A DNA stretch of 64,000 nt. It comes from Eutreptiella sp. 'Long Island Sound 2002' (taxonomy: Eukaryota > Euglenozoa > Euglenophyceae > Eutreptiales > Eutreptiaceae). The notes under the pieces were generated by a model. It ran no database searches, was not told where the DNA came from, and was given only the letters and a program-made list of their open reading frames with translations. The stretch covers positions 13,289,629 to 13,353,628 of the forward strand of contig OZ038380.1 in assembly GCA_964036045.1 (NCBI GenBank), read 5' to 3'. Positions 10,486-60,420 of this stretch are shown one piece after another (the stretch's first letter is position 1; every line of letters starts with the position of its first letter). Position numbers and translations under genes: made by a program.

Positions 10486-10523
10486 CTTAAGCTTGCTTGC
10501 TTGTACTGAGGTTTGAGGAGAGT

Positions 10524-12899: not shown

Positions 12900-12904
12900 T
12901 ACCA

Positions 12905-18845: not shown

Positions 18846-18870
18846 GGTGGTGGGAGATGGCCGCTCCTGA
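18846..18870 (+). repeat. Left terminal inverted repeat
   Basis: GGTGG then TGGGAGATGGCCGCTCCTGA (overlapping at TGG); it matches the reverse complement of 54,896-54,921 except for one missing A. Confidence 0.85.
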
Positions 18871-19076
18871 CAGGAGCCGCCCCTGGCTCCTGCTCCTGAG
18901 GAGCACCGACCCTGGCTCCTGAGGAGCTCCGACCCTGGGGTGCTCCTTAGGAGCACCGACCCTGGCTCCTGAGGAGCACCGACCCTGAGGGGGCTCCTGA
19001 GGAGCACCGACCCTGGCTCCTCAGGAGCCAAAGCTCCTGAGGAGCACCGACCCTGGCTCCTGAGGAGCCAAAACAG
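18862..19076. repeat. Left palindrome-rich end: tandem GCTCCTGAGGAGC units
   Basis: About nine units of a 22-35-bp repeat (CACCGACCCTGG + CTCCTGAGGAG) fill this segment. GCTCCT-N-AGGAGC is a near-perfect 13-bp palindrome. The right end has the same units in opposite orientation. Confidence 0.85.
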
Positions 19077-19760
19077 AAAAAGGTTGTTTTTTCACTTTTA
19101 GCTGAGTACTTTGCATATTTTCTACAAAGGGTGCCCATTGTGGCTGCAAAGTTACCAACAACTTGGATAAAAGTCGCATTTTTGGACTCTTACAGGCTTT
19201 CCTAATGTCTACATCATTGATCCTGAAGAACACCACCTCTGCTCCTTGGGAACGATTCTGCTTCGGAACAAAAGCGGCCCTCAGGAACCAAAACAAAACG
19301 ACTTATTCCCAATTTTTGATTACTTATGTGTACTTTTTCGTACACGGTGCCCATCGTGCATGCAAGATTGCCAACAAGGCTAATAAAAGTTGCATTTTTG
19401 TTAGCTTTGGAGGTTCAACTAGAGGTTTCCTCCAAAATTTTGTCAGTGAACGAAGTCGTTTGTTTGAATCACTGATCTTGGGAAGAACCACTATTGCTCC
19501 TGAAGAGCAATTTTGCTCCGGAGGAGCACCGTCCGTGTCTTTCGGGGAGCTAAAACAAACCTAAGTGCTTTTCACTTTGTGCTTGTTGTTTCGCATCATT
19601 TCAACATCCGCTCCGCATCATTCTTGGAACATTACCAACAACCCAAAAGTTGCATTGCGCTTTAGAAAGTGTACTAGACATTTGTTTCCTTTGCTTCAAT
19701 GTTTGCTTTGTGACCAACGTCAATTAACAAAATACTTGTTCGTCTCAAAGAGGTGAATTT
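19077..19760 (+). repeat. Degenerate subterminal repeats, about 220-260 bp
   Basis: Three units share TGCCCAT.GTG..TGCAA..TTACCAACAA...AAAAGT.GCATT (near 19,129, 19,347 and 19,600) and end in eroded forms of the CTCCTGAGGAGC palindrome (19,225-19,300 and 19,495-19,530). No coding function is evident. Confidence 0.6.
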
Positions 19761-21690
19761 GAAGCTCTTATAGCCATGCAACTTGAGTGTAATTTTGTTT
19801 TGCAAACAACATCATTGCCTCTACTTTGAAACCGCAATGAAAACTATGTTTTTGCTTTGATTGGGCATTTTTAGTCTTTAACCTCTTGTGCTATCTTTTT
19901 CAATCAACCTTTTTTCCTAATGCCTTAGCCAAAGAACCATGCAGCAAGCACTTAAACCTAAATACATGTGTATAACAATTGACATTGTGTATTGGCACCA
20001 ATCACATAGAAACCAACACCACCTTTTCTACCATCAATTCCATTTGCTGCGGGAGAAACCACAAAATTGCACTTCATCTGCCTTACTTTAGAAGATTCGC
20101 ATTCATTGAACTTTCGGACCCCACCAGAATACAATTGTTCCATACAGCATCATTGCCCGTTGTGTTGCATCAGACTTTGGATGAAAATGATGCATCAAGC
20201 AGTACGCAAAATGCACAAAAAATCCTATCCCGAAATTCACAAAGTAAATAATCAACCAAAAATGAATACTAATTCGTAGTCCAATTGGCGCATCAATAAC
20301 TCAAGTAACACATCAAATTGCAATGGAGCCTTACGGTCCAAAGATATGAAAATTGGTACCATACAGCATATGTATTGTACGGTATCGGCATGGTATCCAT
20401 ACCATACAGTGCTGCAATATCTTGTATGGTATGGCCCAACACTCTTGTATTCACTACTTTGTCCCACCACAAAAAAAAATTGGCTTTTTTCACTCCAAAC
20501 AAATATATCGCACAATGCCTTGGCTGTCAGTGCATCCGCAGAGTGGTCCGATACATGGTTGTTGTCAATTCTTGGCAGCTGATGAACAATTGCTATCATT
20601 TTAATGAACTACTAATCGTGGGAAATTAATGACTGGACACTGGACAAAGGGCTGGCCATGGTTTCTTTTTTTTTATGCTCCATAGGAAAGGCACTATACC
20701 TTGCATCTTGGTAGTACCTATGTGGTACCCGTGACCAATGGTGTTCAGATGTGTAATGCAAAGGCATCAACCAATCAAAAATGACTGCAGTGGGTTCCCT
20801 GGGCGGCATTGGCGAGCACTTCACTGTGCCATGTCCTGATGCAAAAGAATGATGGTTGCACGATTTGGCCAAATCAGCTTGCCATAATTGCGAAATTCTG
20901 CTGCCACCGTCACACTGCTTGCTAATTGCTCCATGTTTGCTGTTTTTAACAACCTTTAACCTAGCCTGGCAACTTGCCACAGAGGCCCAGCATGCCACGC
21001 ATGCAATTGAACTCAAATTCTACCCTCCACCACCTGCTTTGCCAGTGCACTAATCACAAGTTTGGCTATTTACTGGTTCGATTTGAGGCTGGCCGACTAA
21101 GCTCAAGGCACAACACTCTCAGCAGCCCATGGTTGATTGCTAGTTCTCTCATAGGGCTTACGAGAACATTGCGAGTTGCTCAGGATTCTTGCCCTCAGTG
21201 GTGGTACTAGCAGCGTGTCCACCTCCATATCGGGACCATTGCTTGCTAATTACGGTCCCACTGCAATTCTGTCTTCCACCACCGCCGCCGCCAGTGCTCT
21301 GATCTGTTGATTGCCTTAATCCCTTGACCCGGTCCAGTGAACTCAACGCACAACACTTGCAAATGCCCGCAATTGATCGCTGGTTCCCGCATTTGGTTCA
21401 GTCTGCAAAATGAATCTGCCTTGTTGGTTTTCACCCTCGCCAATGGTTTTAACCTCTGAAAATAATGAAATCAACAAGCACACGGCGGAAATCGCGCACG
21501 GTCAGAAACCATTCAGCACCTCAATGTCCACGTCCCACGAAGCAAATGCTTTCTCACCCCACTGGGGGACTCCTCACAAGTGCAAACGCATCAACCCCCC
21601 GAAGTGGGGAAAATTTTTTCACTCACGAGGGCCCCCTGCGGCAAGCTCAGATGCAAAAAGTGCAACACAATTGCAAAAGCTGCCAAGTAA
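19761..21690. other. Stretch without recognisable genes inside the 36-kb element
   Basis: AT-rich sequence with short, overlapping ORFs on both strands and no domain. A run around 20,340-20,450 repeats GTACCATACAG/GGTATGG words in both orientations. Confidence 0.5.
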
Positions 21691-21712
21691 TTTCCAGAAA
21701 CACTGTCTGTGG

Positions 21713-22416
21713 CTACAATGCCCAAGAGGGAATACGCTTGTTGACATCACCATTGATCATTGCAAGCAAATACCCAATCTGTGAATCATAAGAGACGTCC
21801 ACAGTCACATTCTTTGCAATATGTTTGCGGGCTCCAGGCTGTCTTGGTTCAGTCGGGTTTGTTCTTGGCAGGAGTAACAGCGGTGGTTGATTGGGCAAGT
21901 GATTCTGGTGTTGCAGGCAATGTTATTCTTGGTGATGTTTTCGCAAAGAAAGGACACGGTTTGAGGTAATGGACACACAGTGTACACAATTTGTCGTCCG
22001 TCGAAAGGTGAGGGTGTCGTTCTGCAATTAGCGCTTGCTGAGATCCACCAAGGTCTGTGCTGTCAATTCTGACCCCTGGCTCAAACAAGCAGCACACTTT
22101 GCCACAAGAACTCAGTGCGGATCTGTTAACAAACAAAACAAATGCATGGGGGGCCAGACCACTGTGACACTGAAGTATGTCAGCTGAAGAATTCCCACCC
22201 ATAAAATGCCTTTTTCTGGTGTTCAATCCTGCAACCCACTGAACAACAAATCGGGGTGAATCGTTGTGGGGGGGGGGGGGGGGGGTTGACACATGGCTGA
22301 AGAGAAATTGAGTATGGACAAATAGAAGATTGTAGAGGAAGAGCAGATGTGTATGATGCAACGAATTCAACTAATTGGTCCAAAATTCTGTGAACTTCAG
22401 CACTCTGCACTGCCAT
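21713..22416 (-). CDS. Candidate exons of an unknown minus-strand gene
   Basis: Three stretches look protein-like on the minus strand. The first starts at an ATG at 22,416 (AEVHRILDQLVEFVASY). The second, about 22,150-21,850, contains GVRIDSTDLGGSQQALIAERHP and DKLCTLCVHYL. The third, about 21,830-21,716, contains NVTVDVSYDSQIGYLLAMI. They are in different frames, separated by a long C/G run and possible AG acceptors, so introns or frameshifts are needed. I recognise no family. This may be gene debris carried by the transposon. Confidence 0.25.
22265..22288 (+). repeat. G homopolymer of about 18 bases
   Basis: A nearly uninterrupted G run. Two shorter runs follow at about 22,681-22,694 and 22,908-22,922. 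Confidence 0.8.
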
Positions 22417-23277
22417 TTAAGTCTTTATTGGAAACTCTCAGTGAGTGCGCATCTCCACCAGACATTCACCATCCAACTGCCATGCTCCTGTGATGCGGTG
22501 CTCAGGGCACAAATACACGTGAGGTTTGGGGGAAACCATTCCTATCCACCCACCCACACCACATTCAGTCCAGAGTTTTTTGTTGATTGTTGGCTTGTGA
22601 AGTCACATGAAGTGCACACCGTAGTAGTGGTATCTGCTGACGCCTCCGGTTTCGAGAAGGAATGCAGAAGTCCCGAACAGTGGGGGGGGGGGGGCTGTCA
22701 GCCGACTGTCAGCAATTGCATGCGGTGGGGGCAAGATAGGCAAAAACTATCAGCTGCCAGAAAAGCACAAATCCCATTCAGGAGGGGTAGGGAATGCAAA
22801 AAACTCTCATCTGGGGGCAGTAGAAATGAAATTTGGCAGGTGGAGTTCAAGTCAAGGACAAACAAAAGCATAAGTGTATCATCATGGGGAAATGGCTGAG
22901 GCCAGGAGGAGGGGGGGGGGGGTCTGCTAACAGGTGAAGATCTGTGTGCAAGACTGAGCTGTCTTAAGCAGAAGCAGGGTTGGAACTGTGATCCCAGATC
23001 TCATGAATGGTCAATGTGGTAACCAGACAGACGTCGTGGCTCATTAAAACCATACAATACAACAGGTTTTTTTCATTTAATGGAGACCTGATCCCTTCGC
23101 AGCAGCCAACTTCATGTCCTCAGGTTTGATGGTAGCGCGCTTTGCATGTGTAGCATACACAGTACACCCTGCAGAGCAAGAGCACGTGGTTTGATGCCAA
23201 AGCCAAACACATAAACATGAACAAAGCAGACAAACATGCGCACCAAATCGATTGGTTCCCAGAGCGTTGTTCAAGCT

Positions 23278-23346
23278 TCAAAGTAAAGCAAGCGAACCAA
23301 AGACCACCATAGTTTTAAAAATGTCAGTCAAGAACGCCTCTGTGGC
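23278..23346 (-). CDS. Candidate exon Z after the satellite unit
   Basis: After TTGTAGCAG on the minus strand the frame GCC ACA GAG GCG is open for 22 codons to a TGA and reads ATEAFLTDIFKTMVV near its start. It is in phase 0, the phase in which exon X (51,537-51,676) ends. Short and unrecognised; kept because its phase matches. Confidence 0.25.
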   Translation of the reverse strand, partial: ATEAFLTDIFKTMVVFGSLALL

Positions 23347-24071
23347 CTGCTACAATCAAGGGCGAGCATGAGGATGATGTTGCAGTCATTGAGTACATGA
23401 AGGGAACCCCCACCCACCCACCCACCCACCACTTCAAGCTGATGGTGTTGCGCAGACCTCTGGTGGCTTTGGGATAAGGGACACCATGCGCCCTGTCGCT
23501 CACAGTTGCCATTGTCGTGTTGGTGTTTTTCGAGGCCCGGGCAGAGCTTGGGTAAAAGGGGGGCGGGGGGTCACTCACCTGCAACCAGCGCCTGACGCGC
23601 ACATGATGGGTACCGGTATGCAAACACAGACCACTAGAACACAAGATACATACTTTCTTGTGCTCTCGCACTGCAAAGAACTTGCACACGTCGTTGCCGC
23701 TGGCTCTGCTCCACTTTTTGCCCTCAGCTCTTGCAAGTTTCTTGTAAGCTGGGCAAATAACACAAAGCAGTGGACAATCACCAATATCAACAAATGGATT
23801 TGACCACTGGTTACGCAGTTGCCTTAGCCTCGCTTGCTCGCGTACTGAGTATCTTATGTGTAGGCCTTGTTTCTGTCCCATTTTCCACATCTGGTTGCAA
23901 CACAGGAAGCTGTGGGAATTTGGGGTCAAAATTGTGCTCCCTTTCTGGTGTGGAAATCTTACCCCTCTATGGCATGAAAATTACCCCTTGCTGTTGCGGG
24001 GCAGATTCCCAAGACCACAAACCAGTATTGAAATCGCATCATATCCAACCAGTTGTTCCCACAGCCCACCT
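23346..24071 (+). repeat. Left copy of the 726-bp terminal direct repeat
   Basis: Identical to 50,813-51,538 at constant offset 27,467, apart from three substitutions (for example CTGGTTGCAAC against CGGGTTGCAAC). It starts CCTGCTACAATC and ends CAGCCCACCT, directly against the satellite array. Confidence 0.95.
23570..23893 (-). CDS. Candidate exon with TTF-type zinc-finger look (left copy)
   Basis: On the minus strand a 100-codon open segment ends at a strong donor (TTGCAG|GTGAGTGA). It reads WSNPFVDIG, then CVICPAYKK, then KKWSRASGNDVCKFFAVREHKK. The pattern C-x2-C, a W/G-rich middle, F..VREH resembles the TTF-type zinc finger found at the N-terminus of some hAT-like transposases and ZNF862-like proteins. 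The last zinc ligand is not clear. An inner GTATGT could be an alternative donor after REHKK. The same exon is in the right repeat. Confidence 0.3.
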
Positions 24072-27000
24072 CCTCCCTCAAACCCCCTTTTCAACTGCCC
24101 CCATGGCCTCAAAACACATTTCAGCCAATGCCAACACCTCAAACCCCCTTTTCAACTTCCCCCACGCCCTGAAAACACATTTCACCCAATGCCAACACCT
24201 CACACCCCCTTTTCAACTGCCCCCATGCCATCAAAACATATTTCACCCAGTGCAAACACCTCAAACCCCCTTTTCAACTCCCCTCATGCCCTCAAAACAT
24301 ATTTCACCCAGTGCCAACACCTCAAACCCCCTTTTCAACTGCCCCCATGCCCTCAAAACATATTTCACCCAGTGCCAACACCTCCAACCCCCTTTTCAAC
24401 TGCCCCCATGCCCTCAAAACATATTTCACCCAATGCCAACACCTCAAACCCCCTTTTCAACTGCCCCCATGCCCTCGAGACATATTTCACCCAGTGCCAA
24501 CACCTCACACCCCCTTTTCAACTGCCTCCATGCCCTCAAAACATATTTCATCCAATGCCAACACCTCCAACCCCCTTTTCTACTGCCCCCATGCCCTCAA
24601 AACATATTTCACCCAATGCCAACACCTCAAACCCCCTTTTCAACTGCCCCCATGCCCTCGAGACATATTTCACCCAGTGCCAACACCTCAAACCCCCTTT
24701 TCAACTCACCCCATGCCCTCAAAACACATTTCACCCAATGCCAACACCTCAAACCCCCTTTTCAACTCACCCCATGCCCTCAAAACATATTTCACCCAAT
24801 GCCAACACCTCAAACCCCCTTTTCAACTGCCCCCACGCCCTGAAAACATATTTCACCCAATGCCAACACCTCACACCCCCTTTTCAACTGCCCCCATGCC
24901 ATCAAAACATATTTCACACAGTGCCAACACCTCAAACCCCCTTTTGAACTCCCCTCATGCCCTCAAAACATATTTCACCCAATGCCAACACCTCAAACCC
25001 CCGTTTCAACTGCCCCCATGCCCTCAAAACACATTTCACCCAATGCCAACACCTCAAACCCCCTTTTCAACTGCCCCCATGGCCTCAAAACACATTTCAC
25101 CCAATGCCAACACCTCAAACCCCCTTTTCAACTTCCCCCACGCCCTGAAAACACATTTCAGCCAATGCCAACACCTCAAACCCCCTTTTCAACTGCCCCC
25201 ATGCCATCAAAACACATTTCACCCAGTGCCAACACCTCAAACCCCCTTTTCAACTGCCCCCATGCCCTCAAAACACATTTCACACGGTGCCAACACCTCA
25301 AACCCCCTTTTCAACTCCCCTCATGCCCTCAAAACATATTTCACCCAGTGCCAACCCCTCAAACCCCCTTTTCAACTGCCCCCATGCCCTCAAAACATAT
25401 TTCACCCAGTGCCAACACCTCCAACCCCCTTTTCAACTCACCCCATGCCCTCAAAACATATTTCACACAGTGCCAACACCTCAAACCCCCTTTTCAACTG
25501 CCCCCATGCCCTCAAAACATATTTCACCCAATGCCAACACCTCCAACCCCCTTTTCAACTGACCCCATGCCCTCAAAACATATTTCACCCAATGCCAACA
25601 CCTCAAACCCCCTTTTCAACTGCCCCCATGCCCTCGAGACATATTTCACCCAGTGCCAACACCTCAAACCCGCGTTTCAACTGCCCCCATGCCCTCAAAA
25701 CACATTTCACCCAATGCCAACACCTCAAACCCCCTTTTCAACTCACCCCATGCCCTCCAAACATATTTCACCCAATGCCAACACCTCAAACCCCCTTTTC
25801 AACTGCCCCCATGCCCTCAAAACATATTTCACCCAATGCCAACACCTCAAACCCCCTTTTCAACTGCCCCCATGCCCTCAAAACATATTTCACACAGTGC
25901 CAACACCTCAAACCCCCTTTTCAACTGCCCCCATGCCCTCGAGACATATTTCACCCAGTGCCAACACCTCAAACCCCCTTTTCAACTGCCCCCATGCCCT
26001 CAAAACACATTTCACCCAATGCCAACACCTCAAACCCCCTTTTCAACTCACCCCATGCCCTCAAAACATATTTCACCGAGTGCAAACACCTCAAACCCCC
26101 GTTTCAACTGCCCCCATGCCCTCAAAACATATTTCACACAGTGCCAACACCTCAAACCCCCTTTTCAACTGCCCCCATGCCCTCAAAACATATTTCACAC
26201 AGTGCCAACACCTCAAACCCCCGTTTCAACTGCCCCCATGCCCTCAAAACACATTTCACCCAATGCCAACACCTCAAACCCCCTTTTCAACTGCCCCCAT
26301 GCCCTCCAAACATATTTCACCGAGTGCAAACACCTCAAACCCCCGTTTCAACTGCCCCCATGCCGTCAAAACATATTTCACCCAGTGCCAACACCTCAAA
26401 CCCCCTTTTCAACTCCCCCCATGCCCTCAAAACATATTTCACCCAGTGCCAACACCTCAAACCCCCTTTTCAACTGCCCCCATGCCCTCAAAACACATTT
26501 CACCCAATGCCAACACCTCAAACCCCCTTTTCAACTGCCCCCATGCCCTGAAAACACATTTCACCCACTAGTGCCAACACCTCAAACCCCCTTTTCAACT
26601 ACCCCCATGCCCTCGAGACATATTTCACCCAGTGCCAACACCTCAAACCCCCTTTTCAACTTCCCCCATGCCCGGAAAACACATTTCACCCAATGCCAAC
26701 ACCTCAAACCCCCTTTTCAACTCACCCCATGCCCTCAAAACACATTTCACCCAATGCCAACACCTCAAACCCCCTTTTCAACTGCCCCCATGCCCTCAAA
26801 ACACATTTCACACGGTGCCAACACGTCGAACCGCCTTTTCAACTCCCCGCATGCCCTCAAAACATATTTCACCCAGTGCCAACACCTCCAACCCCCTTTT
26901 CTACTGCCCCCATGCCCTCAAAACATATTTCACCCAATGCCAACACCTCCAACCCCCTTTTCAACTGCCCCCATGCCCTCAAAACATATTTCACACAATG

Positions 27001-27669
27001 CCAACACCTCAAACCCCCTTTTCAACTGCCCCCATGCCCTCGAGACACATTTCACCGAGTGCCAACACCTCAAACCCCCTTTTCAACTGCCCCCATGCCC
27101 TCAAAACACATTTCACACAATGCCAACACCTCAAACCCCCTTTTCAACTGCCCCCATGCCCTCGAGACACATTTCACCGAGTGCCAACACCTCCAACCCC
27201 CTTTTCTACTGCCCCCATGCCCTCAAAACATATTTCACCCAATGCCAACACCTCCAACCCCCTTTTCAACTGCCCCCATGCCCTCAAAACATATTTCACA
27301 CAATGCCAACACCTCAAACCCCCTTTTCAACTGCCCCCATGCCCTCGAGACACATTTCACCGAGTGCCAACACCTCAAACCCCCTTTTCAACTGCCCCCA
27401 TGCCCTCAAAACACATTTCACCCAATGCCAACACCTCAAACCCCCTTTTCAACTCCCCCCATGCCCTCAAAACATATTTCGGCCAGTGCCAAAACCTCAA
27501 ACCCCCTTTTCAACTGCCCCCATGCCCTCAAAACACATTTCACACAATGCCAACACCTCAAACCCCCGTTTCAACTGCCCCCATGCCCTGAAAACACATT
27601 TCACCCACCAGTGCTAACACCTCAAACCCCCTTTTCAACTCACCCCATGCCCTCAAAACACATTTCACA

Positions 27670-41300: not shown

Positions 41301-44300
41301 CATGCCCTCAAAACATATTTCACCCAGTGCCAACACCTCAAACCCCCGTTTCAACTGCCCCCATGCCCTCAAAACATATTTCACACAGTGCCAACACCTC
41401 AAACCCCCTTTTCAACTGCCCCCATGCCCTGAAAACACATTTCACCCACCAGTGCCAACACCTCAAACCCCCTTTTCAACTCACCCCATGCCCTCAAAAC
41501 ACATTTCACACAGTGCCAACACCTCAAACCCCCGTTTCAACTGCCCCCATGCCCTGAAAACACATTTCACCCACCAGTGCCAACACCTCAAACCCCCTTT
41601 TCATTCACCCCATGCCCTCAAAACACATTTCACACAGTGCCAACACCTCAAACCCCCTTTTCAACTCACCCCATGCCCTCAAAACACATTTCACACAGTG
41701 CCAACACCTCAAACCCCCTTTTCAACTGCCCCCATGCCCTCAAAACATATTTCACACAGTGCCAACACCTCAAACCCCCTTTTCAACTGCCCCCATGCCC
41801 TCAAAACACAATTCGCCCAATGCCAACACCTCAAACCCCCTTTTCAACTGCCCCCATGCCCTCAAAACATATTTCGGCCAGTGCCAACACCTCAAACCCC
41901 CTTTTCAACTGCCCCCATGCCCTCAAAACACATTTCACCCAGTGCCAACACCTCGAACCCCCGTTTCAACTGCCCCCATGCCCTCAAAACATATTTCATC
42001 CAGTGCCAACACCTCAAACCCCCTTTTCAACTGCCCCCATGCCCTCAAAACACATTTCACCCAATGCCAACACCTCAAACCCCCGTTTCAACTGCCCCCA
42101 TGCCCTGAAAACATATTTCACCCAATGCCAACACCTCAAACCCCCTTTTCAACTGCCCCCATGCCCTCAAAACACATTTCACCCAATGCCAACACCTCAA
42201 ACCCCCTTTTCAACTCACCCCATGCCCTCAAAACATATTTCACCCAGTGCCAACACCTCAAACCCCCGTTTCAACTGCCCCCATGCCCTCAAAACATATT
42301 TCACACAGTGCCAACACCTCAAACCCCCTTTTCAACTGCCCCCATGCCCTGAAAACACATTTCACCCACCAGTGCCAACACCTCAAACCCCCTTTTCAAC
42401 TCACCCCATGCCCTCAAAACACATTTCACACAGTGCCAACACCTCCAACCCCCTTTTCAACTCACCCCATGCCCTCAAATCACATTTCACACAGTGCCAA
42501 CACCTCAAACCCCCTTTTCTACTGCCCCCATGCCCTCAAAACATATTTCACACAGTGCCAACACCTCAAACCCCCTTTTCAACTGCCCCCATGCCCTCAA
42601 AACACATTTCACACAATGCCAACACCTCAAACCCCCGTTTCAACTGCCCCCATGCCCTGAAAACACATTTCACCCACCAGTGCCAACACCTCAAACCCCC
42701 TTTTCATTCACCCCATGCCCTCAAAACACATTTCACACAGTGCCAACACCTCAAACCCCCTTTTCAACTCACCCCATGCCCTCAAAACACATTTCACATA
42801 GTGCCAACACCTCAAACCCCCTTTTCAACTGCCCCCATGCCCTCAAAACATATTTCACCCACTGCCAACACCTCAAACCCCCTTTTCAACTGCCCCCATG
42901 CCCTCCAAACATATTTCACACAGTGCCAACACCTCACACCCCCTTTTCAACTCCCCCCATGCCCTCAAAACACATTTCACACACTGCCAACACCTCAAAC
43001 CCCCTTTTCAACTGCCCCCATGCCCTCAAAACACATTTCACCCAATGCCAACACCTCAAACCCCCTTTTCAACTCACCCCATGCCCTCAAAACATATTTC
43101 ACCCAGTGCCAACACCTCAAACCCCCTTTTCAACTGCCCCCATGCCCTCAAAACACATTACACACAGTGCCAACACCTCAAACCCCCGTTTCAACTGCCC
43201 CCATGCCCTGAAAACACATTTCACCCACCAGTGCCAACACCTCAAACCCCCTTTTCAACTCACCCCATGCCCTCAAAACACATTTCACACGGTGCCAACA
43301 CCTCAAACCCCCTTTTCAACTCACCCCATGCCCTCAAAACATATTTCACACAGTGCCAACACCTCAAACCCCCTTTTCAACTGCCCCCATGCCCTCAAAA
43401 CATATTTCACACAGTGCCAACACCTCAAACCCCCTTTTCAACTGCCCCCATGCCCTCAAAACATATTTCACACAATGCCAACACCTCAAACCCCCTTTTC
43501 AACTGCCCCCATGCCCTCAAAACACATTTCACACAATGCCAACACCTCAAACCCCCTTTTCAACTGCCCCCATGCCCTCAAAACACATTTCACACAATGC
43601 CAACACCTCAAAGCCCCTTTTCAACTGCCCCCATGCCCTCAAAACACATTTCACCCACCAGTGCCAACACCTCGAACCCCCTTTTCATTCACCCCATGCC
43701 CTCAAAACACATTTCACACAGTGCCCACACCTCAAACCCCCTTTTCAACTCACCCCATGCCCTCAAAACACATTTCACACAGTGCCAACACCTCAAACCC
43801 CCTTTTCAACTGCCCCCATGCCCTCAAAACACATTTCACCCACCAGTGCCAACACCTCGAACCCCCTTTTCATTCACCCCATGCCCTCAAAACACATTTC
43901 ACACAGTGCCCACACCTCAAACCCCCTTTTCAACTCACCCCATGCCCTCAAAACACATTTCACACAGTGCCAACACCTCAAACCCCCTTTTCAACTGCCC
44001 CCATGCCCTCAAAACATATTTCGCCCAATGCCAACACCTCAAACCCCCTTTTCAACCGCCCCCATGGCCTCAAAACACATTTCACACAGTGCCAAAACCT
44101 CAAACCCCCGTTTCAACTGCCCCCATGCCCTGAAAACACATTTCACCCACCAGTGCCAACACCTCAAACCCCCTTTTCAACTCACCCCATGCCCTCAAAA
44201 CATATTTCACCAAGTGCCAACACCTCAAACCCCCTTTTCAACTGCCCCCATGCCCTCAAAACACATTTCACACAGTGCCAAAACCTCAAACCCCCGTTTC

Positions 44301-45500
44301 AACTGCCCCCATGCCCTGAAAACACATTTCACCCACCAGTGCCAACACCTCAAACCCCCTTTTCAACTCACCCCATGCCCTCAAAACACATTTCACACAG
44401 TGCCAACACCTCCAACCCCCTTTTCAACTCACCCCATGCCCTCAAAACACATTTCACACAGTGCCAACACCTCAAACCCCCTTTTCTACTGCCCCCATGC
44501 CCTCAAAACATATTTCACACAGTGCCAACACCTCAAACCCCCTTTTCAACTGACCCCATGCCCTCAAAACACATTTCACACAATGCCAACACCTCAAACC
44601 CCCGTTTCAACTGCCCCCATGCCCTGAAAACACATTTCACCCACCAGTGCCAACACCTCAAACCCCCTTTTCATTCACCCCATGCCCTCAAAACACATTT
44701 CACACAGTGCCAACACCTCAAACCCCCTTTTCAACTCACCCCATGCCCTCAAAACACATTTCACACAGTGCCAACACCTCAAACCCCCTTTTCAACTGCC
44801 CCCATGCCCTCAAAACATATTTCACACAGTGCCAACACCTCAAACCCCCTTTTCAACTGCCCCCATGCCCTCAAAACACAATTCGCCCAATGCCAACACC
44901 TCAAACCCCCTTTTCAACTGCCCCCATGCCCTCAAAACATATTTCGGCCAGTGCCAACACCTCAAACCCCCTTTTCAACTGCCCCCATGCCCTCAAAACA
45001 CATTTCACCCAGTGCCAACACCTCGAACCCCCGTTTCAACTGCCCCCATGCCCTCAAAACATATTTCATCCAGTGCCAACACCTCAAACCCCCTTTTCAA
45101 CTGCCCCCATGCCCTCAAAACACATTTCACCCAATGCCAACACCTCAAACCCCCGTTTCAACTGCCCCCATGCCCTGAAAACATATTTCACCCAATGCCA
45201 ACACCTCAAACCCCCTTTTCAACTGCCCCCATGCCCTCAAAACACATTTCACCCAATGCCAACACCTCAAACCCCCTTTTCAACTCACCCCATGCCCTCA
45301 AAACATATTTCACCCAGTGCCAACACCTCAAACCCCCGTTTCAACTGCCCCCATGCCCTCAAAACATATTTCACACAGTGCCAACACCTCAAACCCCCTT
45401 TTCAACTGCCCCCATGCCCTGAAAACACATTTCACCCACCAGTGCCAACACCTCAAACCCCCTTTTCAACTCACCCCATGCCCTCAAAACACATTTCACA
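38340..45500 (+). repeat. Higher-order duplication in the array, offset 3,990 bp
   Basis: About 3.2 kb from 38,340 to 41,510 recurs almost base for base at 42,330-45,500. Marker variants such as CTCAAATCACATTTC (38,486 and 42,476) and AACACATTACACACAG (39,163 and 43,153) confirm the offset. Within it, about 40,580-41,520 is repeated at 41,500-42,440 with offset 920. Confidence 0.88.
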
Positions 45501-48340
45501 CAGTGCCAACACCTCCAACCCCCTTTTCAACTCACCCCATGCCCTCAAAACACATTTCACACAGTGCCAACACCTCAAACCCCCTTTTCAACTGCCCCCA
45601 TGCCCTCAAAACATATTTCACACAGTGCCAACACCTCAAACCCCCTTTTCAACTGACCCCATGCCCTCAAAACACATTTCACACAATGCCAACACCTCAA
45701 ACCCCCGTTTCAACTGCCCCCATGCCCTGAAAACACATTTCACCCACCAGTGCCAACACCTCAAACCCCCTTTTCTACTGCCCCCATGCCCTCAAAACAT
45801 ATTTCACACAGTGCCAACACCTCAAACCCCCTTTTCAACTGCCCCCATGCCCTCAAAACACATTTCACACAATGCCAACACCTCAAACCCCCGTTTCAAC
45901 TGCCCCCATGCCCTGAAAACACATTTCACCCACCAGTGCCAACACCTCAAACCCCCTTTTCATTCACCCCATGCCCTGAAAACACATTTCACCCACCAGT
46001 GCCAACACCTCAAACCCCCTTTTCATTCACCCCATGCCCTCAAAACACATTTCACACAGTGCCAACACCTCAAACCCCCTTTTTAACTGCCCCCATGCCG
46101 TCAAAACACATTTCACCCAGTGCCAACACCTCAAACCCCCGTTTCAACTGCCCTCATGCCCTCAAAACATATTTCACCCAATGCCAACACCTCAAACCCC
46201 CTTTTCAACTCACCCCATGCCCTCAAAACACATTTCACCCAGTGCCAACACCTCAAACCCCCTTTTCAACTCACCCCATGCCCTCAAAACACATTTCACC
46301 CAGTGCCAACACCTCAAACCCCCGTTTCAACTGCCCCCATGCCCTGAAAACACATTTCACCCACCAGTGCCAACACCTCAAACCCCCTTTTCATTCACCC
46401 CATGCCCTGAAAACACATTTCACCCACCAGTGCCAACACCTCAAACCCCCTTTTCATTCACCCCATGCCCTCAAAACACATTTCACACAGTGCCAACACC
46501 TCAAACCCCCTTTTTAACTGCCCCCATGCCGTCAAAACACATTTCACCCAGTGCCAACACCTCAAACCCCCGTTTCAACTGCCCTCATGCCCTCAAAACA
46601 TATTTCACCCAATGCCAACACCTCAAACCCCCTTTTCAACTGCCCCCATGCCCACAAAACACATTTCACCCAGTGCCAACACCTCAAACCCCCTTTTCAA
46701 CTGCCCCCATGCCCTCAAAACATATTTCGGCCAGTGCCAACACCTCAAACCCCCTTTTCAACTGCCCCCATGCCCTCAAAACACATTTCACCCAGTGCCA
46801 ACACCTCGAACCCCCGTTTCAACTGCCCCCATGCCCTCAAAACATATTTCATCCAGTGCCAACACCTCAAACCCCCTTTTCAACTGCCCCCATGCCCTCA
46901 AAACACATTTCACCCAATGCCAACACCTCAAACCCCCGTTTCAACTGCCCCCATGCCCTGAAAACATATTTCACCCAATGCCAACACCTCAAACCCCCTT
47001 TTCAACTGCCCCCATGCCCTCAAAACACATTTCACCCAATGCCAACACCTCAAACCCCCTTTTCAACTCACCCCATGCCCTCAAAACATATTTCACCCAG
47101 TGCCAACACCTCAAACCCCCGTTTCAACTGCCCCCATGCCCTCAAAACATATTTCACACAGTGCCAACACCTCAAACCCCCTTTTCAACTGCCCCCATGC
47201 CCTGAAAACACATTTCACCCACCAGTGCCAACACCTCAAACCCCCTTTTCAACTCACCCCATGCCCTCAAAACACATTTCACACAGTGCCAACACCTCCA
47301 ACCCCCTTTTCAACTCACCCCATGCCCTCAAAACACATTTCACACAGTGCCAACACCTCAAACCCCCTTTTCAACTGCCCCCATGCCCTCAAAACATATT
47401 TCACACAGTGCCAACACCTCAAACCCCCTTTTCAACTGACCCCATGCCCTCAAAACACATTTCACACAATGCCAACACCTCAAACCCCCGTTTCAACTGC
47501 CCCCATGCCCTGAAAACACATTTCACCCACCAGTGCCAACACCTCAAACCCCCTTTTCTACTGCCCCCATGCCCTCAAAACATATTTCACACAGTGCCAA
47601 CACCTCAAACCCCCTTTTCAACTGCCCCCATGCCCTCAAAACACATTTCACACAATCCCAACACCTCAAACCCCCGTTTCAACTGCCCCCATGCCCTGAA
47701 AACACATTTCACCCACCAGTGCCAACACCTCAAACCCCCTTTTCATTCACCCCATGCCCTGAAAACACATTTCACCCACCAGTGCCAACACCTCAAACCC
47801 CCTTTTCATTCACCCCATGCCCTCAAAACACATTTCACACAGTGCCAACACCTCAAACCCCCTTTTTAACTGCCCCCATGCCGTCAAAACACATTTCACC
47901 CAGTGCCAACACCTCAAACCCCCGTTTCAACTGCCCTCATGCCCTCAAAACATATTTCACCCAATGCCAACACCTCAAACCCCCTTTTCAACTCACCCCA
48001 TGCCCTCAAAACACATTTCACCCAGTGCCAACACCTCAAACCCCCTTTTCAACTCACCCCATGCCCTCAAAACACATTTCACCCAGTGCCAACACCTCAA
48101 ACCCCCGTTTCAACTGCCCCCATGCCCTGAAAACACATTTCACCCACCAGTGCCAACACCTCAAACCCCCTTTTCATTCACCCCATGCCCTGAAAACACA
48201 TTTCACCCACCAGTGCCAACACCTCAAACCCCCTTTTCATTCACCCCATGCCCTCAAAACACATTTCACACAGTGCCAACACCTCAAACCCCCTTTTTAA
48301 CTGCCCCCATGCCGTCAAAACACATTTCACCCAGTGCCAA
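45200..48340 (+). repeat. Higher-order duplication in the array, offset 1,783 bp
   Basis: About 1.3 kb from 45,310-46,560 recurs at 47,090-48,340. A shorter step of 431 bp repeats the CCCCCTTTTTAACTGCC block (46,077, 46,508, 47,860 and 48,291). Confidence 0.85.
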
Positions 48341-50088
48341 CACCTCAAACCCCCGTTTCAACTGCCCTCATGCCCTCAAAACATATTTCACCCAATGCCA
48401 ACACCTCAAACCCCCTTTTCAACTGCCCCCATGCCCACAAAACACATTTCACCCAGTGCCAACACCTCAAACCCCCTTTTCTACTGCCCCCATGCCCTCA
48501 AAACACATTTCACCCAATGCCAACACCTCAAACCCCCTTTTCAACTGCCCCCATGCCCTCAAAACATATTCCACCCAATGCCAACACCTCAAACCCCCTT
48601 TTCAACTGCCCCCATGCCCACAAAACACATTTCACCCAGTGCCAACACCTCAAACCCCCTTTTCTACTGCCCCCATGCCCTCAAAACACATTTCACCCAG
48701 TGCCAACACCTCAAACCCCCTTTTCAACTGCCCCCATGCCCTCAAAACACATTTCACCCAGTGCCAACACCTCAAACCCCCTTTTCAACTGCCCCCATGC
48801 CCTCAAAAGACATTTCGGCCAGTGCCAACACCTCAAACCCCCTTTTCAACTGCCCCCATGCCCTCAAAACGCATTTCACCCAATGCCAACACCTCAAACC
48901 CCCTTTTCAACTGCCCCCATGCCCACAAAACACATTTCACCCAGTGCCAACACCTCAAACCCCCTTTTCTACTGCCCCCATGCCCTCAAAACACATTTCA
49001 CCCAGTGCCAACACCTCAAACCCCCTTTTCAACTGCCCCCATGCCCACAAAACACATTTCACCCAGTGCCAACACCTCAAACCCCCTTTTCTACTGCCCC
49101 CATGCCCTCAAAACACATTTCACCCAGTGCCAACACCTCAAACCCCCTTTTCAACTGCCCCCATGCCCTCAAAACACATTTCACCCAGTGCCAACACCTC
49201 AAACCCCCTTAACTGCCCTCATGCCCTCAAAACATAATTCATCCAGTGCCAACACCTCAAACCCCCTTTGCAATTGCCCCGATGCCCTCCAAACACATTT
49301 CACCCAGTGCCAACACCTCAAACCCCCTTTTCAACTGCCCCCGTGCCCTCAAAACACATTTCGCCCAATGCCAACACCTCAAACCCCCTTTTCAACTGGC
49401 CCCATGCCCTCAAAACATAGTTCACACAGTGCCAACACCTCAAACCCCCTTTTTAACTGCCCCCATGCCCTCAAAACACATTTCAGCCAGTGCCAACACC
49501 TCAAACCCCCTTTTCAACCGCCCTCATGCCCTCAAAACATATTTCACCCAGTGCCAACACCTCAAACCCCCTTTTCAACTGCCCCCATGCCCTCAAAACA
49601 TATTTCACCCAATGCCAACACCTCAAACCCCCTTTTCAACTGCCCCCATGCCCTCAAAACACATTTCACCCACCAGTGCCAACACCTCAAACCCCCTTTT
49701 CAACTGCCCCCATGCCCTCAAAAGACATTTCGGCCAGTGCCAACACCTCAAACCCCCTTTTCAACTGCCCCCATGCCCTCAAAACGCATTTCACCCAATG
49801 CCAACACCTCAAACCCCCTTTTCAACTGCCCCCATGCCCACAAAACACATTTCACCCAGTGCCAACACCTCAAACCCCCGTTTCAACTGCCCCCATGCCC
49901 TCAAAAGACATTTCGGCCAGTGCCAACACCTCAAACCCCCTTTTCAACTGCCCCCATGCCCTCAAAACGCATTTCACCCAATGCCAACACCTCAAACCCC
50001 CTTTTCAACTGCCCCCATGCCCACAAAACACATTTCACCCAGTGCCAACACCTCAAACCTCCTTCTCAACTTGTTGCATGCCGACAAT

Positions 50089-50812
50089 ATACGACTACGC
50101 CCGTGGCTTTGTATCATGTCATGGCTCGTTTAGACGTGGTCGTTGATGGCCGCCCAGGTTTCACTGCCCGGCAATTTCTATTGCTTTTTTTTGTAGGTTC
50201 GCGCTTCCAGTTCCTGTAGGGGCGTTTTCTGCTGTTTTTCCTTGACTACCCAAACTGGCATTCGTGGGCGCCGTCATGCCTTACAATCCCAGCACCCAGC
50301 GGTAGGGCGCTCGTTTGGATAGCAGGGATCAAACCTAGCATGAGACTCTGCTTTCAGACCTTCTGGACATACACGATTGGGTACAATGGAGAATATGCAC
50401 AAAGTGGAAAATGTACACAGGACAATGAAATGGGCAGAAGTTGCTTAGGGTATGCGTTGGGGCTGCAACTTTGGTGCTGAATTATCCTTCGAAACAGAGC
50501 AAGAAAAAGCGTGACGGCGTCCAGCAGTGGTTGACGGCGTCCTGCAGACATTTCCAGCAGCTGGACGTACAACGCCGCGTGGCCTGGCGAACAGTGGTGC
50601 CACACCAGTCGCCGACTGGTGTGCTGCGTCTCGATTGGGATGGAGGTGGTGGGCATGGGCATCAATCGGGCCTTGTCTAGAACAGGGGGTCTTGTTGTGC
50701 CAATACCGGCTCAGAAAAAGTGTATCTAAACGTGTCATAGCATTGGGGTCTATGGTGATGTGTAACCTGACCATGACCGGAATACCTAAGCTCTCGGGCA
50801 TGGATGCATGTA
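50089..50812. other. Unique spacer between array and right 726-bp repeat
   Basis: The last monomer decays at about 50,060-50,088. The spacer has broken ORFs; one plus-strand piece near 50,470-50,680 (CRHFQQLDVQRRVAWRTVV) looks protein-like but is unrecognised. At 50,290-50,340 CAGCGGTAGGGCGCTCG and GGATCAAACC resemble tRNA A- and B-boxes. Confidence 0.4.
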
Positions 50813-51538
50813 CCTGCTACAATCAAGGGCGAGCATGAGGATGATGTTGCAGTCATTGAGTACATAAAGGGAACCCCCACCCACCCACCCACCCACCACT
50901 TCAAGCTGATGGTGTTGCGCAGACCTCTGGTGGCTTTGGGATAAGGGACACCATGCGCCCTGTCGCTCACAGTTGCCATTGTCGTGTTGGTGTTTTTCGA
51001 GGCCCGGGCAGAGCTTGGGTAAAAGGGGGGCGGGGGGTCACTCACCTGCAACCAGCGCCTGACGCGCACATGATGGGTACCGGTATGCAAACACAGACCA
51101 CTAGAACACAAGATACATACTTTCTTGTGCTCTCGCACTGCAAAGAACTTGCACACGTCGTTGCCGCTGGCTCTGCTCCACTTTTTGCCCTCAGCTCTTG
51201 CAAGTTTCTTGTAAGCTGGGCAAATAACACAAAGCAGTGGACAATCACCAATATCAACAAATGGATTTGACCACTGGTTACGCAGTTGCCTTAGCCTCGC
51301 TTGCTCGCGTACTGAGTATCTTATGTGTAGGCCTTGTTTCTGTCCCATTTTCCACATCGGGTTGCAACACAGGAAGCTGTGGGAATTTGGGGTCAAAATT
51401 GTGCTCCCTTTCTGGTGTGGAAATCTTACCCCTCTATGGCATGAAAATTACCCCTTGCTGTTGCGGGGCAGATTCCCAAGACCACAAACCAGTATTGAAA
51501 TCGCATCATATCCAACCAGTTTTTCCCACAGCCCACCT
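50813..51538 (+). repeat. Right copy of the 726-bp terminal direct repeat
   Basis: Same sequence and orientation as 23,346-24,071, three differences. It also contains the minus-strand zinc-finger-like exon (about 51,037-51,360). Confidence 0.95.
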
Positions 51539-51676
51539 GTGGAGCTTCAGCCATGTCTCCCAAAGATCCTGATATTGTGGTGCTCAGTTCCAAGCCGTCT
51601 TTGGGTCCAGCCGGCACAAACCCATTTTGGGCAGTTCTGAGTTGCCTGGCAAAAAACAACTCCATTTCAGCTGGAT
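51537..51676 (-). CDS. Candidate exon X, unknown protein
   Basis: On the minus strand a 140-nt open segment sits between TTTTTTTTGGCTTTCCAG (acceptor) and CTCCACAG|GTGGGC (donor). It encodes DPAEMELFFARQL, GFVPAGPKDGLEL and SGSLGDMAEAPQ and ends in phase 0. The donor GT is the first base pair of the shared 726-bp repeat, so the repeat starts at the intron boundary. The opposite strand is also open here (MSPKDPDIVV), which lowers confidence. Confidence 0.35.
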
Positions 51677-52689
51677 CTGGAAAGCCAAAAAAAATTGCTC
51701 CGCCACTACAGCTACGATGTTGTTGCGGGTGCACGTAGGCACCGTCTACAGACCATGGGGTCCGAACCCACAGGGCTTTGCTTGAGTAGGGTGACAAGGG
51801 GGAGAGAGGGGGACCGCTGGCGTGTCTCGTTTTCCAATGAAGGCAGTTCCTCCATAGCGACTGGCCCATCAAATGATTAGAACTGGGTGTTGGGTGGGTC
51901 AAGCAGGCGAGTAAAAAGTCTTTTTTGCCACAATGTGACAACATAGGAGTTGCTCAAAATGACCTTGAAGCAAAGCGCATCACCACAAACCAGTTTTGTG
52001 CTATTTGGAGCCGTCTAGCCTGTTTTATGGCGGAGCGGGGGGGGGGGGGGGAGGGGGCTTCCGACCTCGCCCAGAAATTGCGAATTTTCAACCAACCCCC
52101 CCCCATCCAAGATGATGAATTTACAAGTGGGTAAGCATCCAATTTCATACATTGGGGTGTGCTGCGCGAATACCCCCAAAGAGGGGACATGGCGCTTGCG
52201 CCTGCCCTTGGCCTAACAACCTTTTTTTAGGCGATGGGCGACCTAGAGTGGAGGAGGAAAGGGGGGGCGGGGTCTGGGCGGGAGCTCCTGCCCCGCCCCC
52301 TCCCAGAATGCACACTAAAGCATCCCCAAGCCACCACCCTGTGTGGGACTGTATGGCTGGGACCAGTGGTATGTTCGGACCTTGGAGGAAATTATTCAGT
52401 TTGGGACAGGCCAGCTCGATGTCTTCTTCAGACGGTGGTACAGGCAGGGCGCGCAGCAACTCTGTCTGGTATCGCCCAGGGCTCCACTCACTTGTTGGGT
52501 CTGGACCAAAATCTCAATGTATTCTTTGGCAGGAAAAAGTCGCAATGTATTTTCCCTTCCATTGTGATCCACTGCTTTTCATGTCACATCTTTTCCTTTC
52601 CTCCCTCGTCAAACGGGTTCCAGCAGTGTGCTTTAAACCCGCTACTCCTGCACACACTGACCATGGCCGTGTAATCAAGTCGTTTTGCC

Positions 52690-53302
52690 GGAGTTCGTTC
52701 TGTGGATCGCGGCGTCTCAGACAATCCCCCGAGTTGCTTTGGACTGCCATTTCATTTGGGAGTCCTTTAGGCTGCCCAGAGTGTGGCCGGATGGTGCCAG
52801 TTCCTGGGTGAGTGCCCGAGGGTTTTGCAAGGCTGAGACGTGCGTTCAGATTGCAGAGTGCAGATTATCCTTATGCTGTGTGCGCCTTTGGCCTTTCTTC
52901 CCCTCGTGACAAAATTTTGATTCCGTCAACTTCTCACATAAGCGCCTGTCTTTCACTTTTTTTCCTGGCCGCTCACAGGTTTTACTGTTTTTCGACTGCT
53001 TGATTGCCCATCACGGACATCGCCCACGTGCATTCTGCATCTTTCGCCCCCCACCATATTTTCAAGCAGTGGCTCAAATTCCTCAGGGTGGCTGGGGATA
53101 CTTTGCCGCTCTACGAATTGTGCATGACACAGGTAAGGAGCCAGTCTGGGACCAGACCTGTTTCAGAAGCGTCTTCCTCTCATCGAACAGCGAAGTCGCC
53201 TCAGCCTTCTTTCAGGGGTCGGGCGTACTGATTCAATGCGCTCTCTGTCTTGGAATTGTGCGCATCCTGGATCTTCAAGAACAAATCTCCTACGAAGTGT
53301 GT
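52690..53302 (+). CDS. Three exon-like segments of an unknown plus-strand gene
   Basis: Segment 1 (to about 52,808) reads SPELLWTAISFGSPLGCPECG and ends CCTGG|GTGAGT. Segment 2 (52,980-53,131) follows TTTTTTTCCTGGCCGCTCACAG, reads IPQGGWGYFAALRIVHD and ends ACAG|GTAAGG. Segment 3 (53,219-53,302) follows CCTTCTTTCAG, reads SMRSLSWNCAHPGSSRTNLL and ends TTCAG|GTGCGC. The donor phase of segment 2 (1) fits segment 3. The good splice signals support a gene or gene fragment; the family is not recognised. CPECG may be half of a zinc ribbon. Confidence 0.35.
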
Positions 53303-53451
53303 TCAGGTGCGCGTCAACGGGCCCTGGTCACTATTCAACCTACCTTGCCCACCTTGCCCACAACCCGATGCATTGAAGGCCGCTTCAGGCGGTACCATTC
53401 AGGACAAAAGTATCACAGTATCACGTTCAGTTGCCACGGTTCGGCAGTCAC

Positions 53452-54086
53452 CTTTGCAGACAGCATCGATCATCTTGTCACCGATCTTGCACTCGGAGCC
53501 GAACTTGGTTTTCACAAGGGTCATATTCTCCTTCGTTTGGGAATCGAATTGAGGATTAACTGCAGGAGTGGCGTGCATTATGATGGAGTGTCCTCTGCAG
53601 CGCTTGGTGCAACGCTTTCCGTCAGCGAGCACTTTTGCCAGTGAGGGCACGTAGTGCAGATTTTTGCGGGAGCAATTGTGCAGTGTCCAGTAGAGACATA
53701 CCAATCAGACAATTGCCGAAAACCCACAAATCATTTCTGATGATGTGGGGCTTTGTATCGATTTTCTGCAGCCAAAAGAAGAGGAGAGTTGGCAGCGCCT
53801 CACCGCTGTGTCGTCAAGCATCTTTGCATTTGTTGTGCACAGTGCACAACTTGTGCAGTGGATCTTGCACAGCTTGAAGTCCACGCAACTACCCCCAGAC
53901 TACGACAAGAACTCAATGATCGAAAACTACACAAAAAAGATCAAAACGCATCGAAGGGCGCACAGGTTTGCCCCCCCCCGCTGAAATACCTTCCTCTTCA
54001 ATTTTTCACCGATCTTGTCAGTTATCTGGTCGAGGATGTACTGCACGTGCTTTCCGCCCTTGAACGTCCAAATGCTGTTGACGAAG
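53452..54086 (-). pseudogene. TOP2: DNA topoisomerase II fragment: three exons of the ATPase/transducer region
   Basis: Exon a (54,086-53,990) has FVNSI.T.KGGKHVQYILDQI; exon b (53,765-53,702) has KPHIIRNDLWVFGNCLI; exon c (53,559-53,452) has NPQFDSQTKENMTL and FGSECKI. These are in the order and spacing of eukaryotic topoisomerase II, and SQTKE is the QTK loop whose lysine touches ATP. Introns have proper sites: AAG|GTATTT to CTGCAG, ATTG|GTATGT to CTGCAG, AAAG|GTGACT. Phases agree across both joins. Topoisomerase II passes one duplex through another in the nucleus. I could not place the preceding or following exons (the toprim, cleavage and C-terminal parts are absent within the element), so this looks like a captured genomic fragment. 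Confidence 0.82.
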
Positions 54087-54624
54087 CTTCAGTGCTGAAA
54101 CTGTGACCATCGTTGTCTTCGATTTCAAGGGTAGAGTGACGGCTTGGGACCAGTTATTTACCCAGCAATCTGGTCATCCCGTTGTCAACCATTGGTCACC
54201 AACGACTTACAACTAATCGTGGACAGGCGTAATTTGGAACACGGCGAAAGCTTCTAATGATGGATGAGTGAGTTGGATGTACGAATGAACATTTGTGTAT
54301 GGTTCAGCTTTGAATGGGGACGACAGTTCATTTTCTCCTGCTGCCTGAATCAGGGCGCTTCGCGACATACAAATCGCGATACCCTGTTTTGGTGTGTTCT
54401 GGTTCAACAGCCTTTTTTTTCCTTTTCTAAGCTTGTGAGAGGTCGTTTCCAAAGTAGAAAATATCAGCGTAATCAATTATGGCGCATACGCTGGGGAACA
54501 CCAACGATTGAAATTTGATGACAACCATTCCACTTCTAAATGCATACATCATGGAAGACACCATACATAGACCATAGTTGACTGTCAAATTTCGATTTTT
54601 TTTCCCGAACCCCTTCTTCCTGCG

Positions 54625-54905
54625 GAGCAATGCCAACCTTTGACCCTAGCTCCTGAGGAGCCACGCCCCTAGCTCTGGAGGAGCAATGACCCTGGCTCCT
54701 TAGGAGCAAAATGCTTAACAAGACAACCGCCGCTCCTGAGAATCGCCGACCCTGGAGGTGGTACAGGGTCGGTGCTCCTGAGGAGCATTTATCAGGGTCG
54801 GTGCTCCTGAGGAGCAGCACCAGGGTCGGTGCTCCTGAGGAGCCAGGGTCGGTGCTCCTGAGGAGCTGGCTCCTCAGGAGCAGGGTCGGCGATTCTCAGG
54901 AGCGG
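54625..54905. repeat. Right palindrome-rich end of the 36-kb element
   Basis: About nine GCTCCTGAGGAGC-type palindromes, here linked by CAGGGTCGGT, the reverse complement of the left-end linker. The outer part therefore forms a long inverted repeat with 18,862-19,076; a short segment (54,700-54,760) contains one inverted switch. Confidence 0.85.
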
Positions 54906-54921
54906 CCATCTCCCACCTACC
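54896..54921 (-). repeat. Right terminal inverted repeat
   Basis: Reverse complement reads GGTAGG then TGGGAGATGGCCGCTCCTGA (overlapping at TGG); pairs with 18,846-18,870. Confidence 0.85.
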
Positions 54922-54930
54922 CCATATTGG
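54922..54930. repeat. Right 9-bp target duplication (CCATATTGG)
   Basis: Same 9 bp as 18,837-18,845, followed by the pol sequence of copy 1. Confidence 0.85.
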
Positions 54931-59586: not shown

Positions 59587-59604
59587 AGGCTGCCTCTGCT
59601 ACCA
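59587..59604 (-). promoter_or_regulatory. Primer-binding site of copy 1
   Basis: Minus strand after the 5' LTR reads TGGTAGCAGAGGCAGCC, close to TGGTATCAGAGC, the initiator-Met tRNA type site. It would prime minus-strand DNA synthesis. Confidence 0.75.
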
Positions 59605-60420
59605 GAAAAGTTTATAGTGTTTTCAGCACTGTGTTTTTGCTTCTCCTGCTGCTTGTTGTTGCTGTAGGGTGTCCTGCTGCTGGTTTTGGATGATGAAAAG
59701 CTTTTGTTTGTTGAAATACAGTAAAGCCAACTCAATCCAGGATAGCCCAAGCCAATAGTATGCAAGGAGAAGGTAATTCAGGATCAAAGCATGAAGGGCT
59801 GCAGTGTAAACAGTGAAAGATGATTAGATATTCACAGAAACTGCAACTCAGGATACAAATGAATGCATATTCACAGAGATAGCTGAAATGTTTTGGAAAA
59901 AGAGTTAGAAAACTGCCTCAGGATCACTCTCTCTCCATAGTGCCATCTTAGGAGATGTGCACTCTTTGTTTTGGCTCCCATATGTGCTGAGGTGGCATGG
60001 TATGTGGCGATGAGGTCACTGCCATGTCACATGGGATCTTCCTACTCAGTTGGGATCTTCCTACTTAGTTAGGCTGACCAGGAATTGAACCCAGGACCTC
60101 TCAAAAAGAGGTGCCTAACCCCCTATGGTGCATACCACTAGGGCAGATAAGTATTCATGGAAAAACATAGATAAATTCATAGGCTCTACCTTAGGTATGT
60201 CAGTGCTCAGTCAACTCAGGAAAAGATGTTTTACTTCTGATTGAAAGGGGATTAAGGGGTCCACTCCATATCCTGATTGGGTGTTTGGTTCCATAGGTCA
60301 AAATGTGTTATCACCACTTTTGGCTGGACCAATACTAAGATAAAAATGCATGGATGTTCAGTGCATCTCTAATACAACTAGAGTATGTCCTAAAGCAATG
60401 GAAAAGCACTTTTTCTTACT
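59605..60420 (-). repeat. 5' LTR of gypsy copy 1
   Basis: Matches 12,905-13,719 almost perfectly, including the tRNA-like segment at 60,071-60,147. It ends against pol of copy 2, which resumes with AGGC at 60,421. Confidence 0.93.

Follow-up and report, generated by a model that had tools for sequence, protein, structure and literature searches.

A 36-kb satellite-bearing element with terminal inverted repeats in a gypsy reverse transcriptase of Eutreptiella and its probable movement in trans

Introduction

How satellite blocks reach new places in a genome is an old open question, and a single locus of the euglenophyte Eutreptiella sp. 'Long Island Sound 2002' raises it in concrete form. The stretch of DNA analysed, here called the window, comprises 64,000 nucleotides of contig C3 (OZ038380.1; C3:13289629-13353628), in which the reverse transcriptase of a Ty3/gypsy retrotransposon is interrupted by a 36-kb insert containing 26 kb of 61-bp satellite repeats. 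What is this insert, and did the satellite travel with it? The insert is, in all likelihood, a member of a non-autonomous cut-and-paste family with terminal inverted repeats (TIRs), which carries the satellite and is moved in trans. A preliminary description of the window had proposed a giant Mutator-like element with the satellite and host exons as cargo; the giant insertion stands, while its assignment and several of its details are revised below.

Insertion site and boundaries

The host Ty3/gypsy copy lies on the minus strand at positions 12898-60420 of the window. Its long terminal repeats (LTRs; 12898-13719 and 59598-60420) are 99.76% identical and, by this measure, the copy is young. When the 90 bp adjoining the insert on either side were joined by script around one copy of the target-site duplication, a stop-free frame was obtained, 59 residues of which are identical to P0001, an uninterrupted pol protein of 1,428 amino acids that belongs to a 90% cluster of 6,186 sequences. 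The two pol halves are thus in frame around one duplication, as the preliminary description had stated, and the in-frame empty site, the inverted ends and the duplication bear out its view of a giant and very recent DNA-transposon insertion. The young gypsy copy itself sits in the pol of another one, older and rearranged, whose parts lie at 8294-12898 and 60421-61595; this older copy matches the younger at 83.5% over 8294-12898, and its piece 60956-61174 is inverted.

The element measures 36,077 bp (18845-54921, plus strand), with its L end on the left and its R end on the right; the limits follow from the 8-bp duplication found across the family and from the onset of identity with a sister copy, both described below. 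The duplication CCATATTG (8 bp) is found at 18837-18844 and 54922-54929, both on the plus strand, and CCATATTGG occurs exactly twice in the whole window, at 18837 and 54922. A duplication of 9 bp had been described earlier; across the family it is 8 bp. Of the 23 elements compared, 22 have G as the opening base of the L end (L022 has T), and this base matches the flank only sometimes. Since its conservation does not depend on the flank, the ninth G belongs to the element as its terminal base. With a duplication of 8 bp, the element therefore runs from 18845 to 54921 and its ends differ by no indel. The exceptional L022 may be a single 9-bp duplication event.

The L-type TIR, GGGTGGTGGGAGATGGCCGCTCCTGA, occupies 18845-18870 (plus strand) and the R-type TIR, GGTAGGTGGGAGATGGCCGCTCCTGA, occupies 54896-54921 (minus strand). 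Read inward, the two ends of the window element (GGGTGGTGGGAGATGG.. and GGTAGGTGGGAGATGG..) are identical at 24 of 26 positions and differ by two substitutions, so the inverted ends of 25-26 bp first described are retained and the indel between them is dropped. The ends are asymmetric, each of the 23 elements having one of the L and one of the R type; the termini read GGGT in 22 of 23 L ends and GGTA in 22 of 23 R ends. Behind them lie subterminal palindrome repeats, on the L side at 18892-19068 (plus strand; 23-bp unit GCTCCTGAGGAGC, together with ACCGACCCTG) and on the R side at 54649-54881 (minus strand). The motif GCTCCTNAGGAGC occurs 15 times in the window, always in the outermost 300+300 bp of the element, against an expectation of about 0.004 per window, which agrees with the palindrome-rich subterminal regions noticed earlier.

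The family across the genome

In the 2.28-Gb genome, 244 exact matches (122 + 122) to a 22-mer of the ends were counted, against none for a reversed-pattern control. An L 29-mer starting one base inside the terminus has 92 exact copies and an extended R 32-mer has 119, the control again giving 0. Pairing was based on the ends listed (92 of 92 L, 100 of 119 R), with partners sought within 100 kb. Among these ends, 42 L/R pairs in the correct orientation were obtained, against a mean of 6.5 and a maximum of 14 in 1,000 shuffles of strand and type. The end-to-end distance ranges from 425 bp to 83.4 kb, with 19 pairs at 20 kb or more and a gap from 16 to 22 kb in which no pair falls. All distances were measured on the assembly, and the big ones may hold nested insertions, as the sister copy does, or be chance pairs.

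In a scripted comparison of elements with both ends in hand, an exact 8-bp duplication was found in 18 of 23, and one with at most one mismatch in 19 of 23. When partners were swapped, 0 of 506 combinations gave an exact match and 2 of 506 a match with at most one mismatch. Inclusion of L002, a 24th element added by eye whose duplication differs at three of eight positions, brings the exact count to 18 of 24; L003-L008 and L030 (which overlap other loci), L053 (a single end) and L056 (R/R) stand outside it. The preliminary description had made its proposal depend on further loci that share these ends next to short duplications; such loci are present (42 pairs among the ends listed), and on this point it stands.

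Eighteen smaller members retrieved whole (L009-L014, L015/25, L016-L024, L047/48 and L057) are built from parts of the window element, namely its two unique side parts (WL and WR), a 726-bp repeat and the array, with unmatched gaps of no more than about 12 bp. Judged by this composition, the small copies are internal deletions of one master. When nine of the 12 array-free members are aligned (L009, L010, L012, L016, L018, L021, L022, L024 and L057), the two sides of the deletion share 1-9 bp; no such overlap was seen in L014, L020 and L023, and L017, at about 180 bp, is too short to judge. The 15.6-kb pair L047/L048 has the full order of parts and a 6.2-kb array. Of the two 15.6-kb pairs considered as autonomous members, the second being at C2:89840486, L047/L048 is the one that was read, and it was rejected, being made of known family parts.

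A divergent member of about 3.2 kb, L001/L029, has ends 81-88% alike and holds a frame of an AlkB-type 2OG-Fe(II) oxygenase (L029:5-535; PF13532, E 5e-12), so interiors vary between shared ends. A pair with R ends on both sides, at C6:146854258 in the locus L056 (C6:146854200-146861420), is an inverted duplicate near the end of contig C6 and is likely an assembly fold.

Movement of the whole unit

A sister copy of the window element is located at C3:134865120-134902319, 121 Mb away, with an exact duplication of its own (CCACCTCT) and with flanks unlike those of the window copy. Identity between the two begins at the first base of the sister copy and ends with the element. Over nine colinear blocks, cut at the observed shifts, only 22 mismatches were found in 27,688 compared bases, all of them in array blocks; short stretches at indels were left out of this comparison, and 2.9 kb of the sister copy lie outside it. 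No mismatch falls in the four blocks covering the L-side unique part, the left 726-bp repeat and the array's first 2.1 kb, nor in the final 1,604 bp of the sister copy, at its R end. That the sister copy is colinear and has a duplication of its own shows that the 36-kb unit moved whole, array included.

The two copies differ in the length of the array. The window array is 3,990 bp longer at one point, and further shifts of -122, -247 and +61 bp are near two, four and one units. At the point of the largest shift a segmental duplication is seen in the window copy (38340-45516, plus strand), stretches of 38340-41526 being repeated exactly at +3,990 bp. At the level of these alignments, the two arrays thus differ in length by unit steps and by a segmental duplication. 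The sister giant also has a 4.8-kb insertion (L041:2497-7295), flanked by a 7-bp repeat, which is not present in the window copy.

Certain observations weigh against a non-autonomous, satellite-carrying TIR family moved in trans. Outside the 42 pairs fall 108 of the 192 listed ends. In six of 24 elements the duplication is not exact: there is one mismatch in L011 and there are three in L002, while L014, L020, L023 and L026/27 (37.6 kb) show practically no duplication at all. Array lengths, moreover, are as in the assembly. Finally, no autonomous member was met with among the elements read, and the insert gave no match to a transposase domain in six frames of 19080-24076 and 50070-54800; for the latter reason the element was probably mobilized in trans, in accordance with the preliminary description.

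Candidate superfamilies

Among the superfamilies, Merlin fits the ends best, a fit that is unproven. Merlin elements are described as having TIRs of 24-462 bp starting with 5'-GG, duplications of 8 or 9 bp and, in some, internal tandem repeats (PMC8101967). The 26-bp ends beginning with GG and the 8-bp duplications agree with this description, and the genome has 87 Merlin-domain matches. That the family is Merlin-like and moved by an IS1595-type DDE transposase can nevertheless be put forward only tentatively: none of 85 of the 87 matches to DDE_Tnp_IS1595 (PF12762; two on contig C2076 left out) lies in any of the 42 pairs, the nearest being 124 kb from a listed end, and no end like that of the family was recognised in the sequence read about 1.5 kb to each side of the ten best Merlin loci.

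A Mutator-like family, mobilized by the transposase of a Mutator-like element (MULE) of the same genome, appears rather unlikely. MULE duplications are 8-11 bp long, mostly 9 bp, a range into which 8 bp falls. An 8-bp duplication also fits Merlin and KDZ/Zisupton, and hAT and P elements as well. The genome also has a large MULE load (739 candidates, with many open frames of about 1,000 amino acids among the 150 scored), and capture of gene fragments fits this origin, as known for Pack-MULEs. The original reasoning from 9 bp to Mutator, however, is void with a family duplication of 8 bp, and none of the 150 scored MULE domains (PF10551; of 739 candidates) lies in the 42 end pairs, the nearest being 420 kb from a pair. 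One MULE, at C2:151567742, has a truncated R end (L053) at a distance of 3 kb and was considered as the autonomous partner; it starts with CGGGAATGGCTATGC.., and it was rejected because three copies, in L053 (L053:2374), L054 and L055, share this start with different flanks. These copies form a MULE family of their own (L053:2374-5592, L054 and L055), 97.5-99.2% alike, with the start CGGGAATGGCTATGCAGG and frames of 1,008 amino acids.

Two other groups were considered. hAT duplications have the form nTnnnnAn, and none of the 18 exact duplications has both T2 and A7. The KDZ transposase profile (PF18758) gave 0 matches in the genome, and it was silent in the control genomes too.

The satellite array in the family

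The array of the window element (24076-50071, plus strand) consists of 424 units of 61 bp, 26 kb in all. The preliminary description called it cargo; the array is there, and the label is misleading, since the 61-bp array recurs, at variable length, as an internal component of the family. All nine elements that hold an exact test unit have the array in the same orientation with respect to L and R, and the lengths measured rise from 0.76 kb in L019 through 2.1 kb in L011, 2.4 kb in L013, 3.2 kb in L015 and 6.2 kb in L047/L048 to 26 kb in the window element. In L026-L028 the array extends beyond the retrieved stretch, and no array was seen in 13 smaller members (the 12 array-free ones and L017). 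The arrays of two other giants are only about 91-92% alike, and another register within the window array reaches 95%.

These observations bear on the possibility that an ordinary host satellite was captured by, or inserted into, an ordinary transposon once, the giant form being accidental. The 726-bp repeats flanking the array do resemble an insertion footprint. The presence of the array in nine elements, in one orientation and at lengths from 0.76 kb to at least 26 kb, speaks against a single accident, and large members are common by end-to-end distance (19 of the 42 pairs), only the window element, L041/42, L026/27 and L028/43 having been read in part or whole. A single capture is therefore judged unlikely. 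An assembly error or a plain segmental duplication instead of transposition is highly improbable, for despite the difficulty of assembling long arrays and the apparent fold of L056, the in-frame empty site equals the uninterrupted pol, window and sister copies each have their own exact duplication, and homology ends at the element end.

Internal structure and neighbouring sequences

From left to right, the window element comprises a 4.5-kb L-side unique part common to family members (WL; 18845-23345), the left copy of a 726-bp direct repeat (23346-24071), the array, a 741-bp segment leading from the array to the right direct repeat (50072-50812), the right copy of the repeat (50813-51538) and a 3.4-kb R-side unique part common to family members (WR; 51539-54921), all on the plus strand. 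The two 726-bp copies are 99.6% identical, and the repeat is also found on both flanks of the array in L047/L048.

Two possible host exons lie in the unique parts, both on the minus strand. In WR, a stretch encoding 33 amino acids of topoisomerase II (53990-54088) is followed by an end resembling a GT splice donor; the match is above the cut-off (PF00204, E 6.8e-8) and is accompanied by a structural match (1pvg, E 1.4e-6), so that, on profile similarity and its splice-like borders, it makes a convincing captured exon. In WL, a possible captured exon of 28 amino acids (23086-23169) resembles the histone fold of CENP-S; its match is below the cut-off (PF15630, E 3.3e-4; CENP-S structures, E about 0.02), and its identity is weak. 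Of the host exons reported in the preliminary description, that of topoisomerase II is therefore clear and the CENP-S-like one weak. With the topoisomerase II exon and the AlkB-type frame of L001/L029, host gene fragments between the ends, as in Pack-type elements, are found in this family.

Outside the element, the window has an exon-like match to a 2OG-Fe(II) oxygenase at 1594-1872 (plus strand; PF13532, E 6e-9), another to the C-terminal domain of RXYLT1 at about 212-364 (plus strand; PF24785, E 3.2e-6) and an imperfect tandem of the 20-bp unit GTCAGTAAGGGGGTTACTGA at 5107-5222.

Proposed mechanism and significance

In its fullest form, a member of the family consists of the L end, the 4.5-kb part with the CENP-S-like fragment, the 726-bp repeat, the 61-bp array, the second 726-bp repeat, the 3.4-kb part with the topoisomerase II exon and the R end. 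A transposase encoded elsewhere would bind the ends and move everything between them, and the 23-bp palindromic subterminal repeats are its likely binding sites. Internal deletions may arise through interrupted gap repair after excision, and the array probably changes by unequal exchange or by copying slippage during gap repair.

A bolder proposal is that the family represents a new TIR lineage in which full-length members are normally satellite carriers of 15-80 kb, ends and satellite travelling together, with an array that grows and shrinks between jumps and that seeds long satellite blocks at new chromosomal sites, the transposase perhaps being of an undescribed group. This is a possibility of some standing, towards which we lean more to doubt than to acceptance.

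The family lets whole satellite blocks move around the genome inside a transposon and shows that tens of kilobases of largely non-coding DNA are within the reach of a TIR system. As two copies of the 36-kb unit can be compared base by base, the change of the array since one jump becomes measurable.

Comparison with known systems

Pack-MULEs are non-autonomous and carry host gene fragments between TIRs. The present family resembles them in both respects and differs in its 26-bp ends, its 8-bp duplication and its large satellite; a MULE link is absent in the domains tested.

With Merlin (PMC8101967), the family shares GG ends, duplications of 8 or 9 bp and the internal tandem repeats of some elements. 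It is unlike Merlin in its sizes of up to tens of kilobases and its palindromic subterminal repeats, and no Merlin transposase was found in any pair. Among KDZ elements, duplications of 8 bp are likewise reported for Zisupton and a Dileera, and a 2OG-Fe(II) oxygenase of TET/JBP type is present in some (PMC12730594). The duplication is thus alike, whereas the oxygenase frame of L001/L029 matches PF13532.

Among the papers that searches for large or tandem-repeat TIR elements brought up, no mobile array of this size was noticed, which does not prove that none has been reported. They include one on a minisatellite within a bacterial miniature inverted-repeat transposable element (PMC4596501). Large retrotransposon derivatives are described as LTR elements, rarely with more than 10 kb inside, whose non-coding interiors are moved in trans (PMC6431247); the window element shares such an interior and is a TIR DNA element instead.

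The closest case among those compared is Tetris, a foldback transposon of Drosophila virilis, with no conserved frames, duplications of 8-10 bp and 220-bp internal tandem repeats in arrays of up to 66 copies (PMC4079207). As in Tetris, frames are not conserved in the present family, duplications are short and internal repeats expand in a satellite-like manner. The Tetris authors considered that larger arrays may have disrupted transposition (PMC4079207). The repeats of Tetris, however, sit in its inverted repeats, whereas the array of the window element is central and has 424 units, and this giant was transposed intact.

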